Assembly (NCBI GenBank): GCA_030835305.1
Contig: JAURPJ010000112.1
Coordinates: 1 to 64,000, forward strand
DNA: 64,000 bases
Source: Verrucomicrobiota bacterium
Lineage (GTDB): Bacteria; Verrucomicrobiota; Verrucomicrobiia; Verrucomicrobiales; Akkermansiaceae
Reading direction: 5' to 3'
The first letter of the stretch is position 1, and the number at the start of each line of letters is the position of its first letter. Below the pieces are notes generated by a model. It searched no databases, had not been told where the DNA came from, and saw nothing but the letters and a program-made list of their open reading frames with translations. Positions 221 to 49,052 of this stretch are shown here, in pieces. Position numbers and translations under genes: made by a program.

Positions 221-1993
221 ATGATTGAGGGATTGGACTGGATCGTGATTGCCGCTTCACTGGCGATCAGCTTGGGGATCGGCTGGTGGGCCGCCAAAAA
301 AAACAGTGGAACTTCCGAGAGCTTTTTTTTGGCGGGGCGTTCCATGCCATGGTGGTTGCTTGGAGTATCCATGGTGGCCACGACCTTCGCTGCTGATACT
401 CCCACCTTGATTACCGACTGGGTGAGAACGGATGGGGTTTCTAAGAACTGGCTTTGGTGGTCACTCGTCTTTTCAGGGATGCTGACTACTTATGTTTTTG
501 CCCGTCGTTGGCAAAGGTCCGGTGTGATGACCGACGTCGAGTTTTATGAATTGAGATATTCCGGGACTGGCGGGCGAATTTTACGAGCCTACCGAGCCTT
601 GTATCTAGGCTTGTTTTTTAACGTTTTCATCATCGCCGTGGTGTCATTGGCTGCGATCAAAATTCTGGGGGTATTGATGGGCCTGGATGCTTGGCAGACC
701 ATTCTACTCGGGGCCGGGGTGACGATGCTTTACAGTGTTGCGGGGGGACTGCGATCAGTGCTATTGGTTGATTTTTTCCAGTTTGGATTGGCCATGGCCG
801 GCTCGGTGGCTGCGACGGTCTATATTTTAAACATGGATTCGATCGGTGGTCTGGACGGGCTCTTTGCCAACGAGGCAGTGCAGGCCAAGATGAGTATCGT
901 TCCAACCGGGGATTCAAGCTGGGTGTCCTTCTTCATTATCCCGATCGCTCTGATGTGGTGGACCAATTATTACCCGGGAGCCGAACCCGGCGGAGGCGGG
1001 TATATCGCGCAACGAAGTTTGGCTGCCAGGAATGAGGAGCACGCCACGAAGGCGAATCTGCTTTTCAACGTAGCTCACTATGCCTTGCGTCCGTGGCCAT
1101 GGATTTTGATTGCGTTGGCTTCGCTGGTGGTTTTCCCCACTTTGGAATCAATCGATCAGGCCTTTCCTGATTTGGAAGAAGGCAAGCTTGGGCACGATGT
1201 TGCCTATCCGGCAATGATCGCCCAACTCCCGGCGGGATTAAAGGGAGTGGTGCTGGCTTCATTGATTGCGGCTTATATTTCCACACTATCGACCCAGGTG
1301 AATCTTGCCTCCTCCTACCTCACGAATGATTTTTGGAAGAGGTTTTGCAATCCAAAGGCCAGCGAACGAGAGCAGGTTTTTGTGGGGCGTGTGAGTAGTG
1401 GTCTGGTTCTTGCACTGGGATCGTTGGTGGCGCTTGCCTTCACGAATGCCGCACAAATGTTTGATGTTTTGTTGATGGTCGGCGCTGGGACCGGTTTGGT
1501 GTATTTGCTTCGTTGGGTTTGGTGGAGGGTAAATGCGTGGAGTGAGATTGCAGCCTCTCTAACCGCCATCGTTTCCAGCTATTTGTTCACGAGCAAGTTG
1601 ACCTTGCCCTTTGCCGATCCTTTTGGTTGGTCGGTGGCGATGGGGCCGTGGAACTATGTCGGGCCGGTCATTCTTACGACCTTTGTTTGGCTGGCGGTGA
1701 CTTTTTTGACCGAACCGGAAGAGCCGGGAATACTGACCCGATTTGTAAATCAAACATCTCCTCCGGGACGCGGATGGGATCGCTTTAGAACGAAAGCGTG
1801 CGATCCCACTGAGCCGTCGATGGGCCGCGATCTTATCAAGGTTTTCTTTGGAAGTACGGGGATTATTGCCGTTCTTGTTGGAACCGGTCTGACTCTCTAC
1901 GGAGTTGTCCTCGCCGGAATTCCACTGCTGGTATCCGGCATTTGTATACTGGTTCCCTTGTTCCGTTCTGCGGTGGATGGTCACCAGGGCTGA
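221..1993 (+). CDS. Sodium:solute symporter (SSS family)
   Basis: This 590-residue inner-membrane protein has about 13-14 hydrophobic segments and belongs by pattern to the sodium/solute symporter family, which couples Na+ entry to uptake of sugars, organic acids or similar solutes. Typical early features are visible: an N-terminal helix, then SESFFLAGRSMPWW and a TM segment with TTFAADTP. The ATG at 221 is preferred over the TTG at 194 because it begins the first hydrophobic segment directly. The substrate cannot be read from sequence. Its 3' end overlaps the converging sulfatase-GH43 gene by 13 bases, so the neighbour suggests, but does not prove, a carbohydrate substrate. Confidence 0.88.
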   Translation: MIEGLDWIVIAASLAISLGIGWWAAKKNSGTSESFFLAGRSMPWWLLGVSMVATTFAADTPTLITDWVRTDGVSKNWLWWSLVFSGMLTTYVFARRWQRSGVMTDVEFYELRYSGTGGRILRAYRALYLGLFFNVFIIAVVSLAAIKILGVLMGLDAWQTILLGAGVTMLYSVAGGLRSVLLVDFFQFGLAMAGSVAATVYILNMDSIGGLDGLFANEAVQAKMSIVPTGDSSWVSFFIIPIALMWWTNYYPGAEPGGGGYIAQRSLAARNEEHATKANLLFNVAHYALRPWPWILIALASLVVFPTLESIDQAFPDLEEGKLGHDVAYPAMIAQLPAGLKGVVLASLIAAYISTLSTQVNLASSYLTNDFWKRFCNPKASEREQVFVGRVSSGLVLALGSLVALAFTNAAQMFDVLLMVGAGTGLVYLLRWVWWRVNAWSEIAASLTAIVSSYLFTSKLTLPFADPFGWSVAMGPWNYVGPVILTTFVWLAVTFLTEPEEPGILTRFVNQTSPPGRGWDRFRTKACDPTEPSMGRDLIKVFFGSTGIIAVLVGTGLTLYGVVLAGIPLLVSGICILVPLFRSAVDGHQG

Positions 1994-4914
1994 GTGATGT
2001 TTAGCTCTGAGAAGGTCGTCGGGATATCGGTCACGCGAAGACCGATCGTCCCAAATTTGTAAGTTGCGTCGCGATGAGAGAATAGTTCCTCTCCGTTGAG
2101 AGCGATCGTGAATTTGGGTCCGATCGCAGTGACGGAAAGTTGGTGCTTTTTGGAGACATCGATGGGAATGGATTTGCGTTTTAATTCCTGCCAACCGGTC
2201 CCGTCCATCTTGCCAAGGAGAACGGCGTTTTGACTTGGTTTGATGCCGATGAAATACCCGCGGACTGCATCGAAGCCGACAGAGGGAGCGGTGACGCGAA
2301 AAAGAATTCCGGAACCCCGGCCGTCCCGAACACCATGAAAGTCAAGCGAGACGGAGGCAACGAGATCATCGGGTGTTTCTTCGCTGAGGACAATCTTTTC
2401 GCCGCTGCGGAATGTGTTGACGGGGGTTGTCGGTTTGGAGCCAAGCTTGAGGCCTTTCGGGCTTGGATTGTAAAACTGAGCATGTCCGAAGTAGGAGTGG
2501 TCGGAGGCCAGATCTGAGGAGTAGGGCAAGGTCAGCATGCTGCTTGTCTCTCCGCCTGGTCGTGGAATGGGCTCGTTTCGACGAGCGGGACGTCCCAAAA
2601 CGGGCAGGCCATCGCCCGACCATTTAAAGGGTTGGGTATAGATGTTTCGTAGCCAGCCGGGACCTCGGTTTTCTTTGGCGTGGAAGACATGCCACCACTC
2701 GGATCCGTTGGGCGATTTGACGAAACATGAATGACCGACACCAAACGTCTCTCTGGTAGATTGAAAAATAGAGCTCTTGTTCTTTGTCCACGACGATGGA
2801 TCAAGTGGATCGTCACCAGTGAGTTCAAGGAGCCCCATTTTGTAGCTCGGCAGCCAGGAAGCACCACAAGAATAGGTGACAAAGATTCGATCACCATTTT
2901 GGAGGACTTGAGGTCCTTCGTTTAGTCCCTTCCCTCCCGGGCCGGTCTCAGTGCGCTCCCAAGGGTAATCGAGGTTGTTACAGATGCGGACACGCCTGCT
3001 CGAAAGTTGAAGTGGAGTCTTCATTTCGGCGATGTAAAGAAACTGGCGGTCTGAGTCGGGGGTGTCCCAACCGGACCAGATCGCGTAAAGTTTGTCTTTC
3101 AGTTTCAGCGGTGTCATATCGATGGCCCAGAGATTTTGTTTGTTGGTGTCTCCGGTCTGAAGCGGTCCATGGATGTCGTATTGACTCAAAGGGTCTTCGG
3201 TCCTTGACCGGAGAACAAAGGCGCGGTGCTTTTTGTTTTGGCCGTCGGAGGCGGCGAAGTAGATATGCCATTTGCCCTCAAGAAAATGAAGTTCGGGAGC
3301 CCAAACCTGTCTCGAGTATGGGCCGGATTCGGGAGATTGCCAAACGAGGTGTCGTTGACCGAAGGAGGTGAGATTTTGAGAGGTGTGAATCGTGATGGCC
3401 CGGTCGCCCTCGGAGGAGCACCAAAGGTAGCGTTCGTTTTTTTCGTCGCGCACAACCCACGGATCTTGACCAACTCCGATTGGATTTATGAAGTGGTTTT
3501 TTGGAAGTGCTCCGGTCTTTTTGTAGGTTGGATCAGAGCCGTCGACGGGCATCCCGGCATTCCATTTTAAGAGGGCCTTGTGAAGGCTGGTGACGATTTC
3601 CGGATTCTGGTTCGCAAGGTTTTGAGATTCCCCGGGATCCTGACGGAGATGATAGAGCTGCGGGTCGGAGCCATCCAGATTGACGAGGTATTTCCAGTCT
3701 CCGTCACGGACAGCGAGGTCGGGATTGTCCTCATCGAATCCATGGCCATAACCGGGGCGGTCGGGTGGGCGCCTCCAAAAAATGGGTGCTTTGCGTGAGG
3801 CTGAAGACTTTCCAATTAGGGTAGCGGAGAGGTCTTCTCCATCTAGGCTTTGAGAGGGTTCAGTTCCGGCGACGGAGTAGAGCGAACGGTTGAGATCGAT
3901 GGCGGAGAAGACAGATGAGTCATTGACAGACCCCGTTTTATCCATGGGGATGAGTCCGGGTGCCCAAATAATGAGTGGTGATCTGATGCCTCCCTCATAC
4001 ATCCAGGTTTTTGCACCGCGGAATGGTCTCGAGGTTCCTGCTCCGGGTTCGTGTCCGTTGTCGGAACAAACCGTTATGATGGTGTTTTCGCGAAGCTTTG
4101 GGTCGTTGCGAACGCGATCAAAGAGGCGGGCGAGTTGCTCATCCATGGAGTCGAGGACGCCATTGTAGAGAGCCCGCTTGTCTCCACCCCATTTGTCGAG
4201 AGGTGGCCACCAGGGGCCGTGCACATCATCCGGCCAAAGATTGATGAAGAAGGGTTTGCCTTTGGCCCTCGATGAGTCGATAAACTTGAGTGCCTCGTCA
4301 ACGAAGCCAGTGGTGATTTCAGATCGCTGCATCCATTTGAATCCTTCTCCAAGGCGCTCTGCGTCAGCCCAAATACGACCTTCGGTGGGATCGCCTCCTT
4401 CCGGATTTGGTTTGAGCGTGAGGGGGAGAAGTTTTGGACCGATTCCTTCGAAATTGGTTAAACTTTGATCGAAGCCATACTTTGAAATTTCAGGAGCTTC
4501 CGCGACATCGCGTTGCCCTCCCATGTGCCATTTTCCGAAGTGCCCTGTTGCGTATCCGGCTTTTTGAAGTTGCCGGGCCAGGGTGGGGGCTTCGGGGTCC
4601 AGCCATTGTGCCATGCCGCGGCGTTTGTTGTCCCGCCGATTGTTGAGGTAGGAAGTGATTCGCCAGCGGTGCGGGTACTGCCCGGTGGTGAGGGCGACCC
4701 GGGAGGGGGAGCAAATGGGAGAGTTGACGTAAAAGTTGGTAAACCGGATTCCCTCCGAAGCGAGCCGGTCGATGTGTTGGGTTTTGACGGTGCCACCAAA
4801 ACAGGAGAAATCAGAATAGCCCATGTCATCAATAAAGACGACGATGATGTTGGGTGGAGCTGATAAAGCGAAGTTCGATAAGAGAAAATTTATGCAAAGG
4901 ATGAGGACTCTCAT
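1981..4914 (-). CDS. Secreted sulfatase fused to a GH43-type glycosidase
   Basis: This 977-residue protein starts with a signal peptide (cleavage near residue 18). Residues about 20-455 are a type I sulfatase: DD at 29-30, the formylglycine motif C68-S-P-S-R72, the second signature GHFGKWH near 125-130, and SDNG near 284-287. Residues about 470-780 match a five-bladed GH43-like glycosidase, with the three expected acids in place: D484 (QDPWVV), D599 (AIDMTP) and E666 (NEGPQV). Residues about 800-977 resemble a beta-sandwich carbohydrate-binding or LamG-like module. The likely role is removing sulfate and a pentose or related sugar from a sulfated polysaccharide in the periplasm or outside the cell. 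The Cys must be converted to formylglycine by an enzyme not encoded here. Confidence 0.9.
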   Translation of the reverse strand: MRVLILCINFLLSNFALSAPPNIIVVFIDDMGYSDFSCFGGTVKTQHIDRLASEGIRFTNFYVNSPICSPSRVALTTGQYPHRWRITSYLNNRRDNKRRGMAQWLDPEAPTLARQLQKAGYATGHFGKWHMGGQRDVAEAPEISKYGFDQSLTNFEGIGPKLLPLTLKPNPEGGDPTEGRIWADAERLGEGFKWMQRSEITTGFVDEALKFIDSSRAKGKPFFINLWPDDVHGPWWPPLDKWGGDKRALYNGVLDSMDEQLARLFDRVRNDPKLRENTIITVCSDNGHEPGAGTSRPFRGAKTWMYEGGIRSPLIIWAPGLIPMDKTGSVNDSSVFSAIDLNRSLYSVAGTEPSQSLDGEDLSATLIGKSSASRKAPIFWRRPPDRPGYGHGFDEDNPDLAVRDGDWKYLVNLDGSDPQLYHLRQDPGESQNLANQNPEIVTSLHKALLKWNAGMPVDGSDPTYKKTGALPKNHFINPIGVGQDPWVVRDEKNERYLWCSSEGDRAITIHTSQNLTSFGQRHLVWQSPESGPYSRQVWAPELHFLEGKWHIYFAASDGQNKKHRAFVLRSRTEDPLSQYDIHGPLQTGDTNKQNLWAIDMTPLKLKDKLYAIWSGWDTPDSDRQFLYIAEMKTPLQLSSRRVRICNNLDYPWERTETGPGGKGLNEGPQVLQNGDRIFVTYSCGASWLPSYKMGLLELTGDDPLDPSSWTKNKSSIFQSTRETFGVGHSCFVKSPNGSEWWHVFHAKENRGPGWLRNIYTQPFKWSGDGLPVLGRPARRNEPIPRPGGETSSMLTLPYSSDLASDHSYFGHAQFYNPSPKGLKLGSKPTTPVNTFRSGEKIVLSEETPDDLVASVSLDFHGVRDGRGSGILFRVTAPSVGFDAVRGYFIGIKPSQNAVLLGKMDGTGWQELKRKSIPIDVSKKHQLSVTAIGPKFTIALNGEELFSHRDATYKFGTIGLRVTDIPTTFSELNITQPW

Positions 4915-10435: not shown

Positions 10436-11965
10436 TCACTGCTTGCCGAGATTGTTTTGCATGTCTTCTAGTGAGACGCCTTTGGTTTCGGGAACCATCA
10501 GTTTGACCCAGATAAGTTGAAGAATCATCATAAAGGAAAAGAATCCAAAGATTTGTGTGGCGGTGAAGGCTTCCATGGCGAGGGGAAAAGCGAAGGTAAG
10601 GATGGCGGCGAAGACCCAGTGGGTTGCGGAGCCAAGGGATTGTCCAAAGCCGCGGGCGACTGCCGGGAAGATTTCCGAGATGAAGACCCAGATGACGGCT
10701 CCCTGCCCAACAGCGTGGGCGGCGATAAAGCCGAGAATACAGATCAGGACAAGAGTGCTACCGGCACCGGATTCTTTTTTGGCTGAGGTGAGAGAGGCTT
10801 CGGCGACTGCTTCAACATTCTCCTCTGAGAGATTCTCCACTGTGATTTGTGGAGTGAATTTTTCAGGAAGCTTTGAGATGTCAGCTGCAATGGTGGGAGC
10901 GTCTGCTTTCAGGGCGAGCGCATCGGCGGCATCTGCGAAAGGATCCTTGTAGTTGTGGAATGCCCAGGCACAGATGGAGAGGGAGGCGATGTATCCGATG
11001 GAGCCAATATAGAGAAGTGATCGTCGACCAAGCTTGTCGATGAGACGAAGTCCTACGAGGGTGAAAATAAGATTTACAAGGGTTATGAGGGTGGCATTGA
11101 AAAGGGATTCGCTGGGGGCGAAACCGGTCATTCCAAGAATTCGGGGAGCATAACCCAGGATGGCATTGATGCCGGACAGTTGATTGAAGAAAGCAATTAG
11201 AAAGGCGAGAGCGAGAGCGAGCTTGAGAGGATTCCAGAAGACCCGAGGATTACCGGATTCGAGGTCGGCCGCTTGTTCGATTTCGGTCACAGCGGCTTCA
11301 AGATCGGCTTCGGAAAAAGTAGGGTTGATCTGACCAAGGATTTTCGTCCCCTCGTCGCGCTGACCATTGTCGATGAGCCAGCGTGGACTCTCGGGGAGGC
11401 TGAAGCACATAAAGGAGTAAATGAGGGCAGGGATTGCCTCGATGCCAAGCATCCAACGCCAAGCGGTTTCACTGTCGGAGCTCATGATCCAGAGAATGAC
11501 GGCATTGGAAATGGTGGCAACAAGGAGGCCGAGGACGATGTTGAACTGGAACATTCCCGTAAGGCGTCCACGTCGATCGGCGGGAGAAATTTCGGAGATG
11601 AAGAGAGGGGCGGCGACGGTGGAAACCCCAATTCCGATTCCACCAATAAATCGGGAGATCGCAAAGAGGGTGATATTGGGGGCGAAGGCGGAGCCAATGG
11701 CCGAGACGAAGTAGAAGATGCCGATCCAAAGGAGGACTTTCTTGCGGCCATATTTGTCAGTGGGTCTGCCTCCGAAGATTGCGCCAACAACGGTTCCCCA
11801 GAGGGCGGCACTCATGGCTAGGCCGTGTTCGAGGCCGCTGAGGCCCCAGAGAGACTGGATTTTCTGCTCGGCTCCGGAGATGACGATTAGGTCAAAGCCA
11901 AAAATGAAACCGGCGAGGGCGCAAGTGATGGCCCAGTAGAGCAGTTTCGAAGGGGAATTGTTCAT
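10436..11965 (-). CDS. MFS sugar porter
   Basis: This 509-residue inner-membrane protein belongs to the major facilitator superfamily, sugar porter group. The signatures are clear: GGRPTDKYGRKKVLL in the loop after TM2, PESPRWLIDNGQ after TM6, RLIDKLGRRSLL after TM8, and PETKGVSLEDMQ at the C-terminus. It most likely imports a monosaccharide by proton symport. An unusual feature is an insertion of roughly 70 residues, rich in Ala, Glu and Asp, between TM9 and TM10; this loop is very short in most relatives and would lie outside the membrane. It is transcribed alone, facing the small gene at its 3' end. Confidence 0.92.
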   Translation of the reverse strand: MNNSPSKLLYWAITCALAGFIFGFDLIVISGAEQKIQSLWGLSGLEHGLAMSAALWGTVVGAIFGGRPTDKYGRKKVLLWIGIFYFVSAIGSAFAPNITLFAISRFIGGIGIGVSTVAAPLFISEISPADRRGRLTGMFQFNIVLGLLVATISNAVILWIMSSDSETAWRWMLGIEAIPALIYSFMCFSLPESPRWLIDNGQRDEGTKILGQINPTFSEADLEAAVTEIEQAADLESGNPRVFWNPLKLALALAFLIAFFNQLSGINAILGYAPRILGMTGFAPSESLFNATLITLVNLIFTLVGLRLIDKLGRRSLLYIGSIGYIASLSICAWAFHNYKDPFADAADALALKADAPTIAADISKLPEKFTPQITVENLSEENVEAVAEASLTSAKKESGAGSTLVLICILGFIAAHAVGQGAVIWVFISEIFPAVARGFGQSLGSATHWVFAAILTFAFPLAMEAFTATQIFGFFSFMMILQLIWVKLMVPETKGVSLEDMQNNLGKQ

Positions 11966-12104
11966 TGAATATATCTGTAGTTAACGAGAAGAAAAACCTG
12001 AGTTTCGTTGGAGAAGAGCGGGGATGGACAAAAGATAGACAATTATGAGGAGCAGGAGCGGTTTGGTAATGGGGGATGTCACTGGAAACTTGATCGGGAC
12101 AAGG

Positions 12105-13397
12105 CTATCTGGATTCTAAGCCGACTGTATTCACTGCGATGACCCGATACGCGTGGCTGGTGCCCGCGATGGGCGTGGGATCGGTGAAGGTCATTTGACT
12201 CAGTGGCTGTTGCGGAGTGTCGCTATATTGAAGCCCCTGAAACAGTGGTCTTCCAAAACTCTTCAGTGGCTTTTCCGGAACCCTGGCAATAGCCTTACCG
12301 TCGCGCATGATGATAAAGTGTGAGAGTCCACTTTCAAGATCAGCGGTGGCGCTCCAGGTGAGGGTCGAATGATCGACTCTGAGATTCGTAGGAGGCGGAG
12401 GGGGAGAGTTGTCGGAGAGGGCGGTGTCCTTCACATAGGCCTGCCAAAGTTTCTTAATTTCAGGGGCGGGAAGCCAGATGGAACGACCGTCGGTTTGATG
12501 GCGGAGACACGAAGAGTTTGACCGGCTGATTCGAATCAATGGCGAGTCCGGTTTTTTGGGAAGTCTGAGGGTGAGACAGGCGTCGAACCATGGAATGGCG
12601 AGATAGCGCTGGTTCCCGCATTCGTGAGAGGTGAGTGGGTCGATGGCATAGGCGATTTGTCCATTCTTACTACTTACTGTGTCAAAAAAGACTTCATTGG
12701 CTGGCCAAACTTTCGAGAATCGACCGGTGGTGACGGTGACGCCTTCCTTCGTGCCGAGGTTGCACATAATGGGGATGGTGAGGGCTACTTCGGGAAGCTT
12801 GTGGGCTTTGATGGAAGGCCGGTTGGGATTGGGTGTTAAATAGGGAACGCCCGATCTCAACCATGCCGCAGCGACTCGTTCCGGGTGCAACATAAGCATG
12901 CCACCAGCCCAGTGCCCCCCACCACTGTGCCCCCAAAGGGCCCAGGGGATTTTGGAAAGCTCGGGGTGATTCGATTTCTTCCCAAGATCGACCAGGGATT
13001 GTTGGAATCGGGCATCGGAACCGTTACGTGGATCACACCAGAGCTGGCAGTCTGCATCTTGAGGTTGCTCGTAGGACGGGGCCATGAGAGCACAGTGGTG
13101 TTTCCGGGCGAGGGCCTGCCAGTGCAAGTCGTAGGCTCCGGTCAAGCCTGATTTGCAGGACCCGACTCCGCAGCCATGTTGATGCACGATGAGGCCGCGA
13201 AGGGTTTTCACGTTGGGGGGAATCCAGATGGTGTATTTGACAGCAAAGGCAAGTTGTTCGTCCTTGGTCCCAGCTTCGTAGCGGACGCGGAAATAGGGGG
13301 GCTCCGCAGGCGGCAAAACCTCATAAGGGTCTTTGGCATTTTGGGCATGGATTCCCTTTACGATAATAAAGAGAAGAAAGAGGGAGCGAGTGATCAT
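12105..13397 (-). CDS. Secreted alpha/beta hydrolase with C-terminal fibronectin-like domain
   Basis: This 430-residue protein has a signal peptide (residues 1-18) and an alpha/beta-hydrolase core. The nucleophile elbow is G156-H-S158-G-G-G, and an oxyanion-type HQHGCG lies near 72-77. The core ends near residue 330. The remaining 100 residues begin with a proline linker ([11 protein letters not shown]) and resemble a fibronectin type III domain. It is probably a periplasmic or extracellular esterase or peptidase-like enzyme; the substrate is unknown. Two cysteine pairs near 76-81 and 117-121 may form disulfides. It is a single gene between the sugar porter and the second sulfatase, which fits a polysaccharide-processing context, for example as a deacetylase-like esterase. 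Confidence 0.8.
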
Positions 13398-13791
13398 CGT
13401 TGCTCAGCTTAGAAAATGAAAGTCGCAAAAACAAGCGCGCGGGTGACTTGCTGAAAGATGGGAATGAGGAAGTGTTGGCGGGTCGGTGAAACCCGAACCG
13501 CCAGTTTCCGTGGTGCCTTTGTTTCCCGATAAACCACCATCAAGTACAACCTTGTTCCGGAAAGAGGTGGACCAAACTGATTGGTTCCTTGCTCTGGAGT
13601 CCCTCAAGTCAGTCTTCGGGGCTGAGGGGCCTTCTTGCAACAGGATCTGCCCTCTTACGAAAGTCAAAGCGGAGCATTTGTAGGTTGGAAATGACACCAA
13701 TTGACAAGGGTTACTTGCCAGGCAATTGCCGTGAGTGACCATGGTGAGGTTTAGTCTGGCGTTGCCTTTTCGCAATTGGTAATCCAGCTAT
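13398..13791. other. Intergenic region with no supported gene
   Basis: About 390 bases between two minus-strand genes. Short open frames exist on both strands (13404-13775 minus and 13486-13683 plus), but neither has a recognisable domain or start context, and both look like chance frames. The promoter of the hydrolase gene should lie at its lower end. I see no RNA gene or clear terminator. Confidence 0.5.
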
Positions 13792-15984
13792 CTATTCTTG
13801 GTCCCTGTATACGGGAGCTTTCCATCCTTTTTTCGAAGTTCCCTGCGGGCGCACGCCGTAAGCGGTCGGTGGAATTACGGTGTCTTCCGATGTGCGAAGT
13901 GGGAGGTCGTCAGGGAAGTGTTTCATACGGATATCCTTGAACTGAATTTGCATGGCGGGCCCGACATGAACCTGGAAGCCGAGGATGCCTTCGAGGGCGC
14001 GGCTTTTTTCGTCGAGATCAACGAGGTCGGAGGTTTTGTGGCCGTCGATCCAGTGCTCATGATGGTTGCCTCGAACCCGGACGCGGTAATCATGCCAAAC
14101 ATTTGGCTCAAACTTCTTAACCTCCATTTTCCCGATAACCCAGGGCCGCCCTGTCGGATCCACAACGACTTTTTGGCCCGCATAGCCAAGGATTCGCCGA
14201 CCCCGCTCTTCATAGGTCATTCCGTTCATGTTCTCGGGCCTCGCCATGATGTCGCATTGGTAGCCGCCCGCGACATCGAGATCAATCTCCGGCATCATCT
14301 TGCTACGATACTGAATTCCACTGTTGGCGCGGTCGTTGAATTTCACTTTTACGTGGAGCTCGAAGTTGCGGATGGTTGAACCGTTCCAAGTGATGAAGCG
14401 ATTTTTTTTGAGAGCACCATCGGTGACTCCGGTGAGTGCTCCGTCCTTGACCGACCAATATTTTTTTTCGCCAGTCCACCCGCTTAGGTTTTTACCGTTG
14501 AAAAGACGAACGAATCCGTCCGCGCCGGGGCGAACGGTCACGGCTGCCGAAGCTTCTGGGTGGGGCGGTGTTGAGGCGGTGAATTTTTGTTTTGGTGGAT
14601 CAAGGGGCGAACCCATTTCCTTGATTCGCTCGTCGGTCCGCTTACGGAGTTTTTCGAGGAGCTTTGCATGTTTGGGATCTGTAGCCAGGTTGATCAACTC
14701 ATCGGGATCGTTTTTGAGATCATGAAGGAACTCGGTGTCGTGATCGATGTAGCGGACATATTTGTGGGTGGCGGTACGGATTCCTTCGTAAGCGGGTATG
14801 CGATGACGGACGGCGAAGTGTTCGTGGAAGGTGTCTGTTCGCCAGTCTGCCGGTTCGTTGCCGAAAACAATGGGTTTCAGGCTCCGGCCATCGAAACGCC
14901 CTGGCGTTTCGAGGCCAGCCCAGTCGAGGAAGGTGGCGGGGAGGTCGATGTTGAGGGCGGGAAGGCTGGAAACCCGACCCTGCTTGTTCCTGGGAACACG
15001 AGGGTCGGCAATGATCATTGGAACCTGGATGGATTCCTCGAAGTGAGACCACTTGCCGGAAAGCCCGCGATTTGCCATGTGGTATCCGTTGTCTGCGGAG
15101 TAAACGATGATGGTGTTGTCAGCGAGTCCGGCCTCATCAAGAGCCTTGAGGAAGCGCCCGATGGCATTGTCGATTCCGGTTACCATGCGGTAGTAGGCCC
15201 GCATGTTGGTCTGATATTTCTCGGGAGTGTTCCAGCGCCAGAAATAACGCTCGCGGGTGATGCTGGTTTGGAGGAAGTCCGGAAGGTTATCGAAGATCGC
15301 GGGGTCCGCGAGGCGGGGAGGTCCAATGTAGGTGTCTTCATAAAGTCCATTGGCGGATTGAGGCCAGGCGAAATGCCCGATGCCGGGGCGACGATCGCCG
15401 TCTTCGGCGTGGCATGCATTGAACCACATGTTGAGAGCAAAAGGTTTGTCCTTGGGCTGGCGTTTCAGGAAATCGATTCCCTTGTCCACGATGAGGTCGG
15501 TTTCGTGTCGGAGAGTGCCATCGGGAAGTTTCTTGAAGAAAGGATTCCTTCCGATGACTTCGATTTCGTCGAAGTGTGCCTTCTTGTCGAATTTTCGGGA
15601 CGACATGACGTGCCATTTGCCGAAGTAGCCGGTGCGGTAGTTGTTCTGCCGGAGGAGATCGGAATAGAGAATTTTGAGAGCTTCATCGCCAACGCGGTCA
15701 CCGTTTCCCGGAGTGCGGTAGCTGCGGGCGGTCATGCCGGTGAGGATGGAGGTCCGGCTGGCCCAACAGATCGGGTGGCTGACAAAGGCTTGTTGGAATC
15801 GGGTGCCACGCGAGGCGAGAGCATCGATGTTAGGCGTTTTTACAACGGGGTTTCCATAGCAACCCAAGGTCGAAATCGTTTGGTCATCAGTAAAGAAAAA
15901 GACGATGTTAGGTTTTTCGGCGGCAGTGTATTGCTGTGACGAGATCACCAGAAGTGAGAGAAGGCTCGAAAGGAATCGTTTCAT
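13792..15984 (-). CDS. Secreted sulfatase fused to a DUF1080 (3-keto-disaccharide hydrolase) domain
   Basis: This 730-residue protein has a signal peptide (residues 1-22), then a type I sulfatase of the iduronate/choline sulfatase-like group: FTDDQ at 31-35, the modification motif C73-W-A-S-R77, YFGKWHV, and YSADNGYHM. The motif is the C-x-A-x-R variant instead of C-x-P-x-R. Residues about 495-710 are a DUF1080 domain (FVRLFNGKNLSGW, then YWSVKDGALTG, SGIQYRS and LGFQVHVG), a family with members shown to hydrolyse 3-keto-glycosides. One polypeptide could thus remove a sulfate ester and cleave an oxidised glycoside. The downstream GMC oxidoreductase pair is a plausible source of the 3-keto substrate. 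Confidence 0.92.
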   Translation of the reverse strand: MKRFLSSLLSLLVISSQQYTAAEKPNIVFFFTDDQTISTLGCYGNPVVKTPNIDALASRGTRFQQAFVSHPICWASRTSILTGMTARSYRTPGNGDRVGDEALKILYSDLLRQNNYRTGYFGKWHVMSSRKFDKKAHFDEIEVIGRNPFFKKLPDGTLRHETDLIVDKGIDFLKRQPKDKPFALNMWFNACHAEDGDRRPGIGHFAWPQSANGLYEDTYIGPPRLADPAIFDNLPDFLQTSITRERYFWRWNTPEKYQTNMRAYYRMVTGIDNAIGRFLKALDEAGLADNTIIVYSADNGYHMANRGLSGKWSHFEESIQVPMIIADPRVPRNKQGRVSSLPALNIDLPATFLDWAGLETPGRFDGRSLKPIVFGNEPADWRTDTFHEHFAVRHRIPAYEGIRTATHKYVRYIDHDTEFLHDLKNDPDELINLATDPKHAKLLEKLRKRTDERIKEMGSPLDPPKQKFTASTPPHPEASAAVTVRPGADGFVRLFNGKNLSGWTGEKKYWSVKDGALTGVTDGALKKNRFITWNGSTIRNFELHVKVKFNDRANSGIQYRSKMMPEIDLDVAGGYQCDIMARPENMNGMTYEERGRRILGYAGQKVVVDPTGRPWVIGKMEVKKFEPNVWHDYRVRVRGNHHEHWIDGHKTSDLVDLDEKSRALEGILGFQVHVGPAMQIQFKDIRMKHFPDDLPLRTSEDTVIPPTAYGVRPQGTSKKGWKAPVYRDQE

Positions 15985-16126
15985 GTCTGAGCTATTGGAT
16001 ACCCTATTGCTCCGAATTTGACGAAGCTGAAATTAAGCTTGGTCGGCTTGTTGGCAGTATTGCTTTTACAAGGTTTTCAACTAATTGTAATCTTCCAAAT
16101 TCATTGGGTTTAGTTGCGATCATGGA

Positions 16127-16590
16127 ATGAATTTTGCAGGAAGTATCTTGGTTCTCGTATCACGCCATCGTGATCTACAGTGGTTTTATCTCACGTCGGA
16201 ATGCGATGAGGGATGCCTTTGCCTACATTAATGTCCAACTTAAGAAGCGGTGGGATTTGGAGGCGGTAGAAGCTTTTGCTGGACATGAGAGAGGGGTCCT
16301 GGAAGCAGTGATTGCAGCCCGGAATGCCCGTTCGGGATCTGCCCAATGGTTTCGAAGGGAAGAAGAAGTGGCCGCTGAAATACACCAATTGTTCGTTCTC
16401 GCCGAAAATTTTTCGGAGCTCGGACTAAGCGAAGAGTTTCTAATGCTGCAGAGTAACTTGACGGAAGTGGAGGGTCAGATCGGTGCATCAACAAGCTTGC
16501 AACTCTGCGGTGACCGATTTGAATGAAGCGGTTGAGGTTCTGCCTGTGGAAGAACTCGATTTGAATACGAGAATCTTGATAAGAGAATAG
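16127..16590 (+). pseudogene. Decayed lemA-like gene
   Basis: The three frames in turn encode a LemA-like protein. ATG 16127 gives the start of a hydrophobic N-terminus (MNFAGSILVLVS). A shift near 16155 moves to the frame with IVIYSGFISRRNAMRDAF and INVQLKKRWDL. In that frame the expected IPNLV after KRRxDL is missing, and the text resumes with EAFAGHERGVLEAVIAARN and LFVLAENFSELGLSEEF. A second shift near 16495-16510 gives NSAVTDLNEAVEVLP, the usual LemA ending, to the TAG at 16588. LemA proteins are small membrane-anchored helical proteins of uncertain role. Two frameshifts and one deletion show that the gene is dead. Confidence 0.8.
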
Positions 16591-16631
16591 GAGACAGGGC
16601 GAACCTGAATCCTATTAAGCTGTCCTCGTCT

Positions 16632-18341
16632 CTAGAGATTGCCCTTTTTCAATTCGTTGACGGCGTAGTTCGCAGCGCGTGCGGTGAGGGCCATGTAGGT
16701 GAGTGATGGGTTCTGACACCCGGCGGAAACCATGGCTGAGCCATCGGTGCAGAAGACATTCTCCGCGCCCCAGACTTGGTTGTGCCTGTTGAGGACCGAT
16801 TCCTTGGGCGAGCTGCCCATACGAGCAGTGCCCATCTCATGAATGCCGAGGCCAATGTTTGGTTTACTGTTGAAACTACGCACATTTTTGAGCCCGAGTG
16901 TTTCGAGCATTTCTCCTCCGTCGGCGGCCATGTCTTTGCGCATGTTGAGTTCGTTTTCCTTGAACTCGGCATCGGCAACGACGAGTGGAAGGCCCCATTT
17001 ATCGGTTTTATCTTTGCTAAGGGTGATGCGGTTTTCTTCATAGGGAAGACATTCGCCAAAGCCGCCTAGATAGAGTCGCCATGGGCCGAAGGAGGTAAGT
17101 TCTTTTTTGAAGTCTGCGCCGAAGCCGCTAATGTAACGGTTCCATTTGGCCCGCATGCCGCCGCCCTGATAACCGAAGCCCCGGAGATAGTCACCATTGG
17201 CTTTCTCGCTGAAGTTGCGAAAGCGGGGGATGTAAAAGCCATTGGGACGGCGACCATAGTGAATCTTATCCTTGTGAGTATCGAGGGTCGCGCTCGCCCC
17301 GGCTCCGAGATGGTGGTCCATGAGGTAACCACCGAGTGACCCGCTCTCATCCATGCCATTTGGGAATCGCCTGGACTTGGAGTTCATGAGGATCGCGGTG
17401 GAGGCTACGGTGGATGCATTCAGGAAAACGACCTTGGCGTAATACTCAGTGGTTTCAAAAGTAATCTCGTCGATTAAGCGAACCCCGATGGCTTTCCCGG
17501 CTTTGTCATCGTAGATGACAGATTCAACGATGGAGTGTGGACGCAGGGTCATATTGCCGGTGTTGGCAGCTGCTTTAAGGGTGGTTGCCTGGCTGCTGAA
17601 GTAGGCGCCGAAGGGACAACCACGACGACATAGATTTCGATACTGGCAACTGGCGCGCCCAAGAGCTATCTGCTCTTCGGTCGGAGCGGTGAGGTGGGCC
17701 ACGCGTCCGGGAATGAGGGTCCGCCCCTTCCACTTTGCTTCGATGGCTCGTTTGAGATCGAGCTCGGGTGGGGTCAGGTCCATGGGTGGTTGAAATTCAC
17801 TATCGGGAAGTTGGGCGAGTCCTTCTTTTGAACCACTGATACCCGCGAACTTTTCGACGTAGGAATACCAGGGCGCCAGCTCATCATATGAGATCGGCCA
17901 AGGGATTGAGATTCCCTCCCTCGCGTTTGACTCCATGTCCATGGGACTGAGTCGATACGTTTGTTTTCCCCACATGAGGGAACGACCTCCGGTGTGGTAT
18001 CCACGCATCCAGTCGAAGCGTTTTTTTTCTTCGTAGGGATGGTCCTCGTCATCGACGAAAAGATATCCAGCCTCTGGTTTGACGGTGTAACCGGTGCGCG
18101 CTTGCTTCTGCTGCTGCTTGAGCATCTCGCGCGATGGCTTGTTCATCCAATTCAACTGCCATGGCATTGAGTTGGTTGTCTTGTAATCGACGATGTGTTT
18201 GATGTCGTGGCCGCGCTCAAGGACAAGAGTCTTGAGGCCCTTTTCGCTTAGCTCCTTGGCGGCCCATCCTCCCGAGATTCCGGATCCGACGACGATCGCA
18301 TCATAGGTGTGCGAGTCTTTCCCTTTGGTGTTTAAACTCAT
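16632..18341 (-). CDS. GMC-family FAD oxidoreductase, large catalytic subunit
   Basis: This 569-residue protein belongs to the GMC oxidoreductases of the periplasmic sugar-dehydrogenase type. The FAD-binding motif VVGSGISGG starts at residue 17. The active-site pair is H501 (HEMGTARMG) and N544 (QNPSLT). Between them, three cysteines C232, C238 and C242 sit in a CxxxxxCxxxCPFGA pattern like the [3Fe-4S] site of FAD glucose dehydrogenase, so electrons could leave directly to a cytochrome. It has no export signal. The gene just upstream encodes a subunit with one, so the pair is probably exported together by Tat. Glucoside 3-dehydrogenases have this composition, so C3 oxidation of a glycoside is a reasonable guess. 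Confidence 0.92.
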   Translation of the reverse strand: MSLNTKGKDSHTYDAIVVGSGISGGWAAKELSEKGLKTLVLERGHDIKHIVDYKTTNSMPWQLNWMNKPSREMLKQQQKQARTGYTVKPEAGYLFVDDEDHPYEEKKRFDWMRGYHTGGRSLMWGKQTYRLSPMDMESNAREGISIPWPISYDELAPWYSYVEKFAGISGSKEGLAQLPDSEFQPPMDLTPPELDLKRAIEAKWKGRTLIPGRVAHLTAPTEEQIALGRASCQYRNLCRRGCPFGAYFSSQATTLKAAANTGNMTLRPHSIVESVIYDDKAGKAIGVRLIDEITFETTEYYAKVVFLNASTVASTAILMNSKSRRFPNGMDESGSLGGYLMDHHLGAGASATLDTHKDKIHYGRRPNGFYIPRFRNFSEKANGDYLRGFGYQGGGMRAKWNRYISGFGADFKKELTSFGPWRLYLGGFGECLPYEENRITLSKDKTDKWGLPLVVADAEFKENELNMRKDMAADGGEMLETLGLKNVRSFNSKPNIGLGIHEMGTARMGSSPKESVLNRHNQVWGAENVFCTDGSAMVSAGCQNPSLTYMALTARAANYAVNELKKGNL

Positions 18342-18359
18342 GGTTGTGATTTTCTAAAG

Positions 18360-18938
18360 TTAAAGAGCCCAGGCTTTTTGGCCGGGCTTAAGCGGCATCG
18401 ACCCAACCCATTTCCCCGGGACAAAAATGAATTCTAATGCTTCGGTCGCTCCCAGCTCGGAACTACAGAAGCAAAATTTTGTGAGCTCCTTAAATTGTTC
18501 GAGAAAAGTGCGGCGAGGATTTTGCCCATCTTTCTGCGCCTTGCGCTTCTCGGCCATCGTCTCATTGTGCATCTTGGTGAGAAACGCGACCTGTTGGGGG
18601 GCAGTGAGCTGGCCAATATCCTTACCGTGTTCCTTTTGGCATCGCCGCATGAGCTCGGAGAGCCCAGCGGTAATGATGTCCTGATCTTCTGGTTCGAGGC
18701 AGTCCTTCACAATGACCTCGATCCATCCGGGAACACCGGCATCAATGGCGCCAGGCGTATTGGTGCGCGGTATAATGGCTTCGGCAATCATGGCAACCTG
18801 CGCCCGTTGGCCGGGACGAAAGAAAGTGAGCTCCTTTGGATCAAATGGCTCGCCCATTTTGGCAAAGGCGCTTTCCGGCAGGGCAATGCCAGCTCCGAGA
18901 GAGCTGGCCATGATTTTTAACATTTCTCGACGTTCCAT
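18360..18938 (-). CDS. Gluconate 2-dehydrogenase subunit 3-like small subunit
   Basis: This 192-residue protein matches the gluconate 2-dehydrogenase subunit 3 family, the small partner of GMC dehydrogenases. Its N-terminus MERREMLKIM followed by a small-residue hydrophobic stretch ending in AFA is a twin-arginine signal. The body contains AEAIIPRTNTPGAIDAGVP, the family hallmark. It ends 18 bases before the GMC gene, so the two are co-transcribed and probably form a complex in which this subunit carries the larger one through the Tat system. The CFC pair near the C-terminus (KFCFCSSE) is notable but its role is unknown. Confidence 0.9.
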   Translation of the reverse strand: MERREMLKIMASSLGAGIALPESAFAKMGEPFDPKELTFFRPGQRAQVAMIAEAIIPRTNTPGAIDAGVPGWIEVIVKDCLEPEDQDIITAGLSELMRRCQKEHGKDIGQLTAPQQVAFLTKMHNETMAEKRKAQKDGQNPRRTFLEQFKELTKFCFCSSELGATEALEFIFVPGKWVGSMPLKPGQKAWAL

Positions 18939-19142
18939 TTAATGATCTGACTCTTTGGGATTCTGAAAGGGATTTGCCGGGTGAGCCAGCACAAAGCGTT
19001 CGCTGCGCGTAGTCACCACCTGTGCCAAGACTTCATCGCTCTGACCACTGATCACTTCATCCTTGATCCGATCGTTGCCAAGAAACGTAAAAATACGGCT
19101 GATAATTCCGCTGGATTTCTTGTCCTTCTTCTGATGAGCCAA
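18939..19142 (-). CDS. Possible small basic protein upstream of the dehydrogenase genes
   Basis: A 67-codon frame with a TTG start ends exactly where the small-subunit gene begins, which suggests coupling. It starts with a lysine-rich segment (HQKKDKKSS), has a short amphipathic part (SRIFTFLGND) and a polar tail. I recognise no family. The lack of an ATG and of a clear ribosome binding site argues against it, so it could equally be untranslated leader. Confidence 0.3.
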   Translation of the reverse strand: MAHQKKDKKSSGIISRIFTFLGNDRIKDEVISGQSDEVLAQVVTTRSERFVLAHPANPFQNPKESDH

Positions 19143-19714
19143 CAGGGAACGATCAAATTTCAGCCTGTCAGAATCCCGCCTACGCCTCCTTTTTTAGGTG
19201 TGAAATACTAATCGACACTCGCCCTGATATTCGGTGGTCACTTGCTGGCCGGGTAGGGAAGATGGGAGTGGCAGGTTTGCTCTCAGAGTTTTATGCGGAG
19301 TGCAGCCAATGACGATGCCACGAGACCTTGGACATGTAACACTTTTACTCTTCCCTCAGATTCGGAGGTAACTTGCGCTTTATTGCCATCGGGTGATCTG
19401 TAACGGGAAGCCACTTGTAGTGGTTTTTGATATCATCGAATTCGTTGAGGTAGCAGGCAAGTGCGGCCGCGACACGGGGCTGGCACATGACACAGGGTTA
19501 TTGGATAGGGATGCTAAGGTCAGCTTGGGCACACCTGCCGCTTGAAAAGGCAAGGTTTCGTTTGAACAGCTATGGGCTAAAGTCTTTATCGACCAATGGA
19601 CGCGAGTTCATGGACCGGAGAATATCCGGTTTCGAAAAGACTGCTTCGGACCGATTGCGAATGACTGCGCATTGCTTGTGAAACGTGCGTAATATTTGCG
19701 CCGTGAGTAAAACA
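19143..19714. other. Gene-poor stretch with possible gene remnants
   Basis: No complete gene is supported. On the minus strand, 19345-19488 encodes 47 residues from ATG (MCQPRVAAALACYLNEFDD, ending KLPPNLREE) that read like the tail of a real protein. On the plus strand, 19544-19690 reads FEQLWAKVFIDQWTRVHGPE and ends LLVKRA, also protein-like but without a start. Neither could be named. The stretch may hold decayed genes. Confidence 0.4.
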
Positions 19715-19738
19715 AATGGCGCTCATGTGAGCGCCATT
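19715..19738 (-). terminator. Hairpin terminator after proS
   Basis: A perfect inverted repeat with 11-base arms (AATGGCGCTCA / TGAGCGCCATT) and a two-base centre. Read on the minus strand it is followed by a T-rich stretch (TGTTTTACTC), and it lies 40 bases past the proS stop codon. That position and polarity fit a Rho-independent terminator for proS. Confidence 0.75.
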
Positions 19739-19778
19739 GGCGGTTGCGGGCCGTCCGTAGATAGATCCTGTGGAGCGG

Positions 19779-21302
19779 TTAGTAACTCCGTCCCCAGATC
19801 GCTCGGGACGTGGTTTGTCTGCCGGTCAGGACGCATGGGGCTTCAGGCTCATCCTGTTTGTCGTTGGGTAGGCACCGGACGGTGATCTTAAGGCGTTTGG
19901 AAATCTCTTCCTCCTCTTCACGTGATCCCGCCCACGGGGTGATGAGCCATCCGGGATTCTCGTTGGAATCATCCCAGTGTTTTTCAAAGGAGATCAGGTC
20001 GGTGCATTCCGTGATGTTTTCATTGCGGAATTCGCGAGCCCGCTCCAGCAGGGACTGGTGGATGTCATCGATAATCTCCAACACGTCGCGGAGAAATTCC
20101 TCCCTTTCCATGAAGGTCTTTTGGTTGGCAGCCTGATCCCGGCGTTGCAGGCAGACTTTGCCCTCTTCGAGGTCACGAGGGCCGATTTCAACACGGAGGG
20201 GGACCCCTTTTTTGACCCATTCCCATTTCTTAACGCCGCCGCCGAGGTCTCGCTTGTCGACATGAACGCGAAGTTTTTCACTTCCGTTGGATTGCTCGCG
20301 AAGGCGAACGGCGAGGGCTTCGCAGGCATCAATTATGGCATCGCGAGAGTCCTCCTTTGGCGTGACTGGGACAATGACAATTTGCTGGGGAGCCACCCGG
20401 GGTGGAAGAACCAATCCATCATCATCCGAGTGGGCCATGATCAGAGTCCCGACGAGGCGTGTCGAAACTCCCCACGAAGTGGTGTGAACATGTTGCTCCT
20501 TGTTGTCGCGGTCGACGAAGGTGATATTTTGGGCTTTGGCAAAATTTTGTCCGAGATAGTGCGAAGTGCCGGCTTGAATGGCCTTCTTGTCTTGGACCAT
20601 GGCTTCAACTGTCAGGGTGGCTTCTGCTCCGGGAAAGCGTTCGGCCTCTGTTTTTTCTCCCATGATGACAGGGATGGCGAGGAGGTCACGAATGGCGTCG
20701 GCATACAGCTGGTGAATCATGTGGGTTTCCGCAAGAGCTTCTTCCCTTGTTTCGTGAGCGGTGTGCCCCTCCTGCCAGAGGAATTCCGCGGTCCGGAGGA
20801 AAAGGCGCGGGCGCATTTCCCAGCGCATCACGTTGGCCCACTGATTGATCAGAAGCGGGAGGTCACGGTAGGAATTCGTCCAGCGGGAAAAGGCTGCTCC
20901 GATGATGGTTTCGGAAGTGGGGCGAATGACGTATGGCTCGGTCAGTTTGCCGGTGGGAATCATTCTGGTCTTACCGGTTTCGGGGTCCCTCGCGGCCTCG
21001 AGCCGATGGTGGGTCACGACGGCGCATTCGGTGGCGAAGCCTTCGGCGTGTTCAGCTTCTTTTTCCAAATAGGAAAGGGGGATCAAGAGGGGGAAGTAGG
21101 CATTCTCGTGGCCAGTGGCCTTAAAGCGTCCATCAAGGTCACGCTGTATGGCTTCCCAAATCGCAAAACCCCACGGCTTAATGACCATGCATCCACGGGT
21201 TTCAGAATTTTCAGCAAGGTCGGCAGCGCGGACGACTTGTTGATACCACTCGGGAAAGTTCTCTGATCGCGTGGGTGTGATTGCGTTTTTAGGCTTGGCC
21301 AT
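19779..21302 (-). CDS. proS: Prolyl-tRNA synthetase, archaeal/eukaryotic-type
   Basis: This 507-residue cytoplasmic enzyme charges tRNA-Pro with proline. The class II motifs are visible: RPTSETIIGAAFSRW (motif 2 area), the RTAEFLWQEGHTAH block, and HTTSWGVSTRLVGTLIMAHSD (motif 3 area). The anticodon-binding domain follows (QQIVIVPVTP), then a C-terminal zinc-domain-like region ending IWGRSY. There is no bacterial-type insertion domain, so it is the short archaeal/eukaryotic-like form that many bacteria also carry. The start is the ATG at 21302 (MAKPKNAITPTRSENF); the open frame extends further up but that part is not synthetase-like. It is divergent from the argA-like gene, with 123 bases between them. 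Confidence 0.96.
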   Translation of the reverse strand: MAKPKNAITPTRSENFPEWYQQVVRAADLAENSETRGCMVIKPWGFAIWEAIQRDLDGRFKATGHENAYFPLLIPLSYLEKEAEHAEGFATECAVVTHHRLEAARDPETGKTRMIPTGKLTEPYVIRPTSETIIGAAFSRWTNSYRDLPLLINQWANVMRWEMRPRLFLRTAEFLWQEGHTAHETREEALAETHMIHQLYADAIRDLLAIPVIMGEKTEAERFPGAEATLTVEAMVQDKKAIQAGTSHYLGQNFAKAQNITFVDRDNKEQHVHTTSWGVSTRLVGTLIMAHSDDDGLVLPPRVAPQQIVIVPVTPKEDSRDAIIDACEALAVRLREQSNGSEKLRVHVDKRDLGGGVKKWEWVKKGVPLRVEIGPRDLEEGKVCLQRRDQAANQKTFMEREEFLRDVLEIIDDIHQSLLERAREFRNENITECTDLISFEKHWDDSNENPGWLITPWAGSREEEEEISKRLKITVRCLPNDKQDEPEAPCVLTGRQTTSRAIWGRSY

Positions 21303-21425
21303 GACGGGCGGAGGATTAGGGAAAGTGGAAGCAAGGCAAAGGAAAAACGAGGTTTGGATTGAGAGAAATTTGACCGTATGACGCGGTGACTTGCCAATCT
21401 GATAAGGGTTTTCTAACATCCCGTT

Positions 21426-34311: not shown

Positions 34312-34323
34312 GTTTTTGTGTGT

Positions 34324-39276: not shown

Positions 39277-39355
39277 AATCCAGTGTGGGGACTCAACAAA
39301 GATCCTACAATCTGAAGGATTGGACAAGCTGCAAAGATCCCCTAGTTTCCGAGGT

Positions 39356-49041: not shown

Positions 49042-49052
49042 GTCAATGAGTG

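Follow-up and report, generated by a model that had tools for sequence, protein, structure and literature searches.

A candidate LacA/LacC-type glycoside 3-dehydrogenase pair beside a sulfatase-DUF1080 fusion in a member of the Verrucomicrobiota

Ordinary glycosidases act poorly on sulfated fucans, ulvan and related glycans, which are a store of marine carbon. A 2024 Nature paper is said to describe a 3-keto pathway of broad specificity. The closest described system is that of Caulobacter crescentus, where the lactose 3-dehydrogenase LacABC and a DUF1080 3'-ketolactose hydrolase form a published 3-keto route (PMC9007349), and C3 oxidation followed by elimination has been published for plant glycosides (PMC10628242). 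The subject here is a possible relative of that route in a member of the Akkermansiaceae (Verrucomicrobiota; assembly GCA_030835305.1, a 4.45-Mb draft). The DNA analysed, called the window below, is positions 1 to 64,000 of contig JAURPJ010000112.1. Its minus strand encodes, in reading order, a PF13618 small subunit, a GMC dehydrogenase and a sulfatase fused to a DUF1080 domain (Table 1). A sequence-only reading of this locus had proposed that the three proteins desulfate a glycan, oxidise a sugar at C3 and then hydrolyse the 3-keto glycoside. The explanation favoured here is that a movable LacA/LacC-type 3-dehydrogenase lies beside an S1_25-like sulfatase-DUF1080 fusion and would act after desulfation. 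Its probability is put at roughly one half.

The window resembles the LacABC system in having a GMC large subunit, a PF13618 small subunit with a twin-arginine (Tat) signal and a DUF1080 domain nearby. Its GMC protein also shares a clade of 115 sequences with that of Caulobacter sp. AP07 (L097; L numbers denote loci and G numbers genomes), whose locus has two DUF1080 genes and may well contain a true lac cluster. However, the pair in the window lacks a neighbouring LacB-like cytochrome gene, the DUF1080 domain there is fused to a sulfatase and carries a Q-x-D motif, and the window has no Gfo/Idh or NupG-type match and a sole TIM-barrel match at its far end (63463-63999). A second system to be compared is P36, an S1_25 sulfatase fused to a rhamnosidase (GH78) that performs the next step of ulvan degradation in Formosa agariphila (PMC8511951). 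The structure 6hr5 shows P36_S1_25, which is catalogued as an exo-3-sulfo-L-rhamnose sulfatase, and another S1_25 enzyme is an exo-3-sulfo-L-fucose sulfatase (PMC9096561). S1_25 has also been linked to fucoidan loci of Verrucomicrobiota metagenome-assembled genomes (PMC8857213). P36 is the closest solved relative of the window's sulfatase half, and both proteins join a sulfatase to a domain proposed for the next step. They differ in that this second domain is DUF1080 in the window and GH78 in P36, and in that the glycan of P36 is ulvan whereas that of the window is conjectural.

The case for the dehydrogenase begins with the pair itself. The small subunit scores 106 bits against PF13618 (cut-off 23.4) and starts with MERREMLKIMASSLGAGIALPESAFA, the twin arginine of which is kept in all eight rows viewed, window included. 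Presumably, judging by this signal, the small subunit exports the complex. Cys232, Cys238 and Cys242 of the large subunit form an exact C-x5-C-x3-C motif. They align with cysteines of the fructose and glucose dehydrogenase (FDH and GDH) large subunits and are invariant in 13/13 rows, window included, as are His501 and Asn544, which we take to be the GMC active-site pair. The sequence-only reading had placed a GMC dehydrogenase and a Tat-signal small subunit beside the fusion and had likened the three cysteines to the [3Fe-4S] site of FAD glucose dehydrogenase; the positions, the Pfam domains and the likeness are all confirmed. Its description of the whole as the make-up of known glucoside 3-dehydrogenases holds for these two subunits but not for the cytochrome subunit, which is not beside the pair. 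Among solved structures, only the FDH and GDH large subunits (7w2j, 6a2u) match along their whole length. They share the GMC family and the cluster site with the window's protein, while a long, fully supported branch splits them from all other rows of the tree described below, and their regiochemistry is presumably other than C3. No cut-off was reached against the NCBIfam choline and other dehydrogenase families (42.4 bits vs 605 for NF002550 and 31.2 vs 732 for betA).

Gene context and phylogeny point to the 3-keto route. Proteins of other phyla are closer to the GMC protein than FDH and GDH are: it is 44-55% identical to 11 plasmid-borne relatives from other phyla (53-55% for plasmids of Xanthomonas, Hymenobacter, Halomonas and Catenovulum), and many relatives at 44-59% identity lie in loci with 3-keto-glycoside genes, Xanthomonas sacchari and Palleronia being named examples. 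Among the best 80 of 590 confirmed GMC loci, identity reaches 66% in a Chitinophagales draft. Scored with local profiles seeded from annotated loci, the stretches examined at these 80 loci contain the GMC gene in 80 cases, the small subunit in 78, a TIM-barrel gene in 43, DUF1080 in 35, Gfo/Idh/MocA in 35, a NupG-type gene in 26, a small cytochrome c in 15 and a sulfatase in 4; 18 of the 80 stretches are shorter than 12 kb, which means that neighbours are undercounted. A quick maximum-likelihood tree of 139 rows was built with FDH/GDH named as outgroup and with choline and alcohol dehydrogenases left out. The window and nine relatives from its genus stand next to L075 within the 115-row clade (SH-aLRT 99), which contains 55 of the 58 rows from 3-keto-type loci. 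Outside it are FDH/GDH and an 18-row paralogue group. Phylogeny of the GMC protein had been the first check proposed in the sequence-only reading, and the protein does group with loci of 3-keto type (DUF1080, Gfo/Idh, TIM-barrel), apart from FDH/GDH. Because relatives' loci hold 3-keto-glycoside genes, and because of this tree position, the two subunits can be classed by sequence as a LacA/LacC-type pair. They would form a periplasmic glycoside 3-dehydrogenase, with a C3 specificity that we infer. The genome has a second GMC and PF13618 pair (G000:C127 184328-186644), 35% identical to the window's, with two sulfatase domains about 6-7 kb upstream (L052); its GMC protein falls in the 18-row outside group.

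The sulfatase half of the fusion has 6hr5 as its nearest solved relative (288 bits vs 208 for the next), with 37% identity over 447 aa. Its CWASR aligns with CAASR of 6hr5, so the S1 cysteine nucleophile motif is present, and the cysteine is found in 14/14 aligned rows, 6hr5 included. The label S1_25-like refers here to the nearest solved structure and is not a SulfAtlas assignment. If 3-O-sulfatase specificity is carried over from these relatives, then C3 oxidation has to wait until the sulfate on O3 has been removed. By this analogy the sulfatase half could suit the dehydrogenase, desulfation freeing the C3 hydroxyl that the latter needs. Desulfation at O3 as the opening step would be a sharper version of the pathway first proposed, provided again that S1_25 specificity carries over.

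The DUF1080 half scores 127 bits against PF06439 (cut-off 26.8). Its predicted structure, with a predicted local distance difference test (pLDDT) score of 82.6, gives Z 16.8-17.3 when compared with 3-keto-2-hydroxy-glucal hydratases and with a 3-keto-glycoside eliminase/hydratase; galectin-like and CBM66 folds rank lower (Z 13-14). What the domain shares with the 3-keto hydratases (8tda, 8v31, 8rr2, 9fbe; BT2157) is the Pfam family, the fold and a Q-x-H motif. It differs from them in being fused to a sulfatase, in being only 19-20% identical in the structural alignment and in lacking their E-x-Q motif. Q-x-H is retained in the window (Q671-x-H673) and in 11/11 fused orthologues, and in 49 domains from LacA-type loci the last position of this motif is His in 37, Glu in 8 and a gap in 4. 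One clue to its role is that 9fbe, a complex with 2-hydroxy-3-keto-glucal, has Asn in place of the BT2157 His. Taken as an inactivating change, this suggests that the His is catalytic. The fused domain is 57-96% identical over 18 orthologues, and Q104, Y119, E121, R124, H169, H172 and H201 are invariant in 19 rows, with D106 nearly so. The domain is well conserved and therefore has some function.

A scheme can be proposed from these parts. The sulfatase, if it behaves as its nearest characterised relative does, would take the 3-O-sulfate off the sugar at the non-reducing end. The GMC pair would then oxidise the freed C3 hydroxyl in the periplasm, electrons perhaps passing from FAD to the 3Fe-4S cluster and on to a cytochrome c encoded elsewhere. 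Finally, elimination/hydration of the DUF1080 type might cut off the 3-keto sugar. The fused variant domain could perform this step, or else one of the 18 E-x-Q proteins among the 29 distinct DUF1080 proteins examined in the genome. The substrate, the carbon oxidised, the order of the steps and their action on one and the same glycan are all part of the proposal.

The scheme calls for an electron acceptor. Cytochrome domains of another type lie within 7359-9887 and 49053-52220, and no CxxCH occurs in frames of at least 90 aa within 10601-24400. In G021, G026 and G020 the small-subunit gene faces, head to head, the gene of a large FG-GAP/DUF7133 protein that has a cytochrome c domain where it is complete (L042), and a DUF7133 cytochrome is also found in a Catenovulum gene run (L064 3046-6177). 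It is a possible electron partner in these relatives. As a candidate in the window's own genome it was rejected, since no match at 1e-150 was found there among the 21 of 57 candidates scored.

We regard the GMC pair as a movable accessory module, set down several times next to sulfatase genes in Verrucomicrobiota. It is head to head with a sulfatase in G009, in G002, G008 and G017, and in Opitutaceae L114. Opitutus L102 has a sulfatase one gene from the pair and a GDSL-DUF1080 protein downstream, and L110 and G026 have no sulfatase beside it. Further afield, a Catenovulum adriaticum gene run consists of a TIM barrel, a PVC-type heme protein, DUF1080, GMC, the small subunit, a sulfatase and GH43. 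Catenovulum, L102, L110 and L114 form their own clade (SH-aLRT 97), separate from the window's, and therefore the association of the pair with sulfatases arose more than once on this tree. Plasmid pAlt76 of Alteromonas sp. 76-1 has the pair among sulfatases and rhamnosidases, with no DUF1080 in the stretch shown; it has been described as an ulvan system, in a paper whose main text does not contain the term GMC (PMC6431674). The chance of an immediate sulfatase neighbour at four of seven placements is about 1.4e-4, a rough figure with several assumed numbers and with placements chosen after the loci had been seen. The placements are the window subclade, G009, the G002 clade, G026, L114, L102 and L110; four of them count as matches, namely the window subclade (through G019), G009, the G002 clade and L114; and G010 (contig ends), Catenovulum, Alteromonas and the paralogue loci are excluded. 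Gene numbers were assumed from genome size, a sulfatase number was assumed for G026, and the counts for the G002, L114 and L102 genomes are lower bounds. The other neighbours of the G002 pair (L048 4298-8410) are a SASA-type esterase and a GH20 hexosaminidase, a glycan setting different from the window's.

Set against the favoured explanation are several observations, the foremost being that the fusion and the GMC pair are largely not co-conserved. The sequence-only reading had suggested looking for co-occurrence of the three genes and had named a lack of co-conservation as a refutation, which for the fusion and the pair largely applies. In a search of 58 genomes, including that of the window, the fusion is present in 24 (23 matches extend far into both domains, that in G008 is partial). 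A GMC orthologue at 80% or more occurs in 11, in one case fragmented. An intact pair adjoins the fusion in only 4 of the 24 (G000, G021, G020 and G019). The fusion outlives the dehydrogenase elsewhere: in G013 it is kept while the GMC gene at the same place is broken and no small subunit was found, in G025 a 30-aa GMC relic lies between it and proS, and G016 has neither. Sixteen other stretches with the fusion (L055-L060 and L184-L193; two are short, and L055 has a relic) are likewise devoid of an intact GMC or small-subunit gene. Because the fusion persists where GMC is absent or broken, it probably has a role independent of the dehydrogenase. Where the pair is present it may also be located elsewhere than the fusion (G002, G008, G009 and G017), and in G026 pair and fusion lie on separate contigs with edges incompatible with an adjacent order. 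All 11 genomes with a GMC orthologue do carry the fusion (a partial match in G008 and G010). Nevertheless, this carries little weight as proof of linkage, as the fusion is found in 13 of the 14 genus genomes that are at least 90% complete anyway.

Other points fall on the same side. The cytochrome profile gave no LacB-like match beside the pair or anywhere in the 64-kb window, the only part of the genome searched for LacB. In the 39-row subclade around the window (SH-aLRT 94) only 10 rows are of 3-keto type, with 21 pair-only and 8 sulfatase-side rows. The stretches examined for the tightest outside relatives, L075 (66% identity) and L076-L078 (59-60%), contain neither DUF1080 nor Gfo/Idh genes, and the genes downstream of these four have no shared family. 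Sulfatases are likewise absent from the stretch examined in 76 of the 80 best GMC loci; the four loci with a sulfatase include the window's sister. Where sulfatases do accompany the pair at other placements they belong to other subfamilies, 23-28% identical to the window's where mostly aligned and not S1_25-like, so the 3-O-sulfate logic does not generalise. Finally, the fused domain has Q576-x-D578 where BT2157 (3osd, 8tda, 8rr2, 9fbe) has E-x-Q, the E and Q of which are probably catalytic. E-x-Q is found in 47/49 DUF1080 domains from LacA-type loci, whereas fused orthologues have Q-x-D (10/11) or Q-x-N (1/11). Domain 1 of 4jqt is Q-x-E.

The arrangement of the genes also bears on this. The small-subunit gene is 18 bp upstream of the GMC gene. 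The GMC and sulfatase genes are 647 bp apart, and the space between them contains an antisense LemA remnant, which makes one operon unlikely in the window's genome; a whole-operon reading was rejected for that reason. G019 has the GMC and fusion genes 153 bp apart on one strand, and co-transcription is possible there. The DUF3137 partner of LemA has no match in positions 1-26000 of the window and is intact in close relatives: G021 and G020 have full-length LemA and a DUF3137 gene at the same site, and L042 has both. In four relatives (L042, L043, L047 and L051) the GMC gene is followed by DUF3137 and a fuller LemA, so that the LemA/DUF3137 genes often travel with the pair.

What else could explain the locus? 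The strongest alternative is that the genes are neighbours by coincidence, sulfatases being abundant in this genome, and that the fused DUF1080 merely binds or is a plain hydrolase. In one form of it the GMC pair serves unrelated glycosides and the fused domain is a lectin-like module that anchors the sulfatase, no 3-keto sugar being involved. The genome has 108 sulfatase and 34 DUF1080 matches, and in one genome the adjacency of the three genes could arise by chance. The antisense LemA remnant, the loss of GMC beside a fusion that is kept across the order without it and the replacement of E-x-Q all speak for coincidence. CBM66 binding modules are among the next fold matches after the DUF1080 entries (Z 13.6), and DUF1080 is also a periplasmic domain of planctomycete kinases (PMC11032199). 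However, coincidence does not readily account for a pair repeatedly placed beside sulfatases, often head to head, or for a Catenovulum run with the same parts, and the invariant polar residues of the fused domain would exceed the needs of a plain tether. This makes it a possible account, if a doubtful one. Another account is that the fused domain cleaves the desulfated terminal sugar directly, with no oxidation, the GMC pair having a separate role. That would be a sulfatase and glycosidase in one chain, just as P36 fuses a sulfatase to the GH78 enzyme of the next step (PMC8511951), and an endo-xanthanase/lichenase with DUF1080 architecture is cited in PMC9007349. It would fit a fusion that is independent of GMC and a genome in which 6 of the 29 distinct DUF1080 domains examined (of 34 matches; L154-L183) are of the Q-x-D/E subtype, the rest being E-x-Q (18) or other (5). 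On the other hand, those of the solved DUF1080 entries examined that have an activity in the title (8rr2, 9fbe, 8tda, 8v31) are 3-keto enzymes, and no assay of the Q-x-D subtype was found in the literature searched. Direct cleavage seems distinctly unlikely.

A further doubt concerns the carbon that is oxidised. Sequence cannot reveal regiochemistry, the only solved relatives with full-length matches are fructose and glucose dehydrogenases, and the cysteine motif and small subunit are common to such enzymes. The pair might then act at C1, C2 or C5, or on another class of compound, as glucose, gluconate and fructose dehydrogenases do, and there would be no 3-keto step. Against this, the tree and gene context tie the clade to DUF1080, Gfo/Idh and TIM-barrel genes, and FDH/GDH lie behind a long, fully supported branch (albeit as the named outgroup), which leaves other regiochemistry very unlikely. 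The favoured explanation, a movable 3-dehydrogenase acting after desulfation, has also been taken in a bolder form. Here an exo-3-O-sulfatase and a glycoside 3-dehydrogenase would act in turn on the same carbon, and the sulfatase-tethered Q-x-D DUF1080 would release the 3-keto sugar by elimination/hydration. This would amount to an oxidative alternative to glycosidases for glycans of sulfated deoxysugars, with the dehydrogenase as a movable cassette that has spread to sulfatase loci in Verrucomicrobiota, Catenovulum and Alteromonas. Retention of Q-x-H slightly raises the odds of this same-carbon route, which on the whole is still unlikely.

For the desulfate-oxidise-hydrolyse pathway of the sequence-only reading the outcome is divided. 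The nearest solved relative of the sulfatase is an exo-3-O-sulfatase, the Catenovulum run has all the parts and pAlt76 has the pair among sulfatases, but the genes are not co-conserved and E-x-Q is lost, although Q-x-H is kept. A sulfated-glycan version of the 3-keto pathway is therefore plausible but unproven. The claim that it would be new has to be narrowed, as the LacABC and DUF1080 route is already in print (PMC9007349). Only the coupling to a sulfatase may be new; no report of a sulfatase joined to a 3-keto route was found in the literature searched, where subscription journals are thinly covered, and this is weak evidence of novelty. If C3 oxidation does follow 3-O-desulfation, annotation that considers only glycosidases and lyases misses part of sulfated-glycan breakdown. 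The locus consists of three clonable proteins, so the hypothesis is testable.

Table 1. Features of the locus, its surroundings in the window and related proteins in other genomes.
Feature	Coordinates	Strand	Basis
LacC-like small subunit, 192 aa, PF13618 (Gluconate_2-dh3), twin-arginine signal	18360..18938	-	Pfam 2.5e-30; RR in 8/8 rows
GMC dehydrogenase large subunit, putatively LacA-type, 569 aa, GMC_oxred_N + GMC_oxred_C	16632..18341	-	Pfam; identity; tree
Cys232-x5-Cys238-x3-Cys242 codons, likely [3Fe-4S] ligands	17616..17648	-	alignment to FDH, GDH
Truncated LemA gene	16110..16526	+	PF04011 4.2e-14 (ORF 16134-16526); tblastn (16110-16490, 68% over 132 of 181 aa of the L042 gene)
Sulfatase-DUF1080 fusion, 730 aa	13792..15984	-	PF00884 at residues 25-357; PF06439 (3keto-disac_hyd) at 490-688
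Sulfatase domain, S1_25-like, motif CWASR (Cys73)	14914..15912	-	PF00884 7.4e-47; 6hr5 3.6e-84
DUF1080 domain, Q576-x-D578, Q671-x-H673	13921..14517	-	PF06439 1.1e-36; fold match
Esterase-like protein downstream of fusion	12105..13397	-	NCBIfam PHB depolymerase type 6.6e-10, below cut-off
Sugar-porter MFS transporter	10436..11965	-	Sugar_tr 1e-90
Second multi-domain sulfatase, 977 aa: sulfatase + GH43 + weak DUF1080-like tail	1981..4914	-	PF00884, PF04616; PF06439 below cut-off
DUF1592/DUF1552 gene pair	7359-9887 and 6011-7354		Planctomycete cytochrome c domain
DUF1553/DUF1501 gene pair	47587-52220		Planctomycete cytochrome c domain
DUF1800/DUF1501 gene pair	32839-39390	-	
CotH kinase + lamin-tail protein, 1496 aa	57544-62034	+	
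FG-GAP/DUF7133 protein, L042	3419-8044	-	
FG-GAP/DUF7133 protein, L047	8205-12833	-	
FG-GAP/DUF7133 protein, L043	8410-9852	+	cut by contig end in G020

Several of the genes downstream of the fusion accompany it in other genomes. The esterase-like gene is beside it in L042, L044, L045 and L055, which is part of the genus. The transporter gene is syntenic with the fusion in these four loci and in L056, and the sulfatase-GH43 protein belongs to the same syntenic block in L044, L045, L055 and L056. The DUF1592/DUF1552-type pair also lies downstream of the fusion. The two other gene pairs and the large CotH protein are found further along the window.

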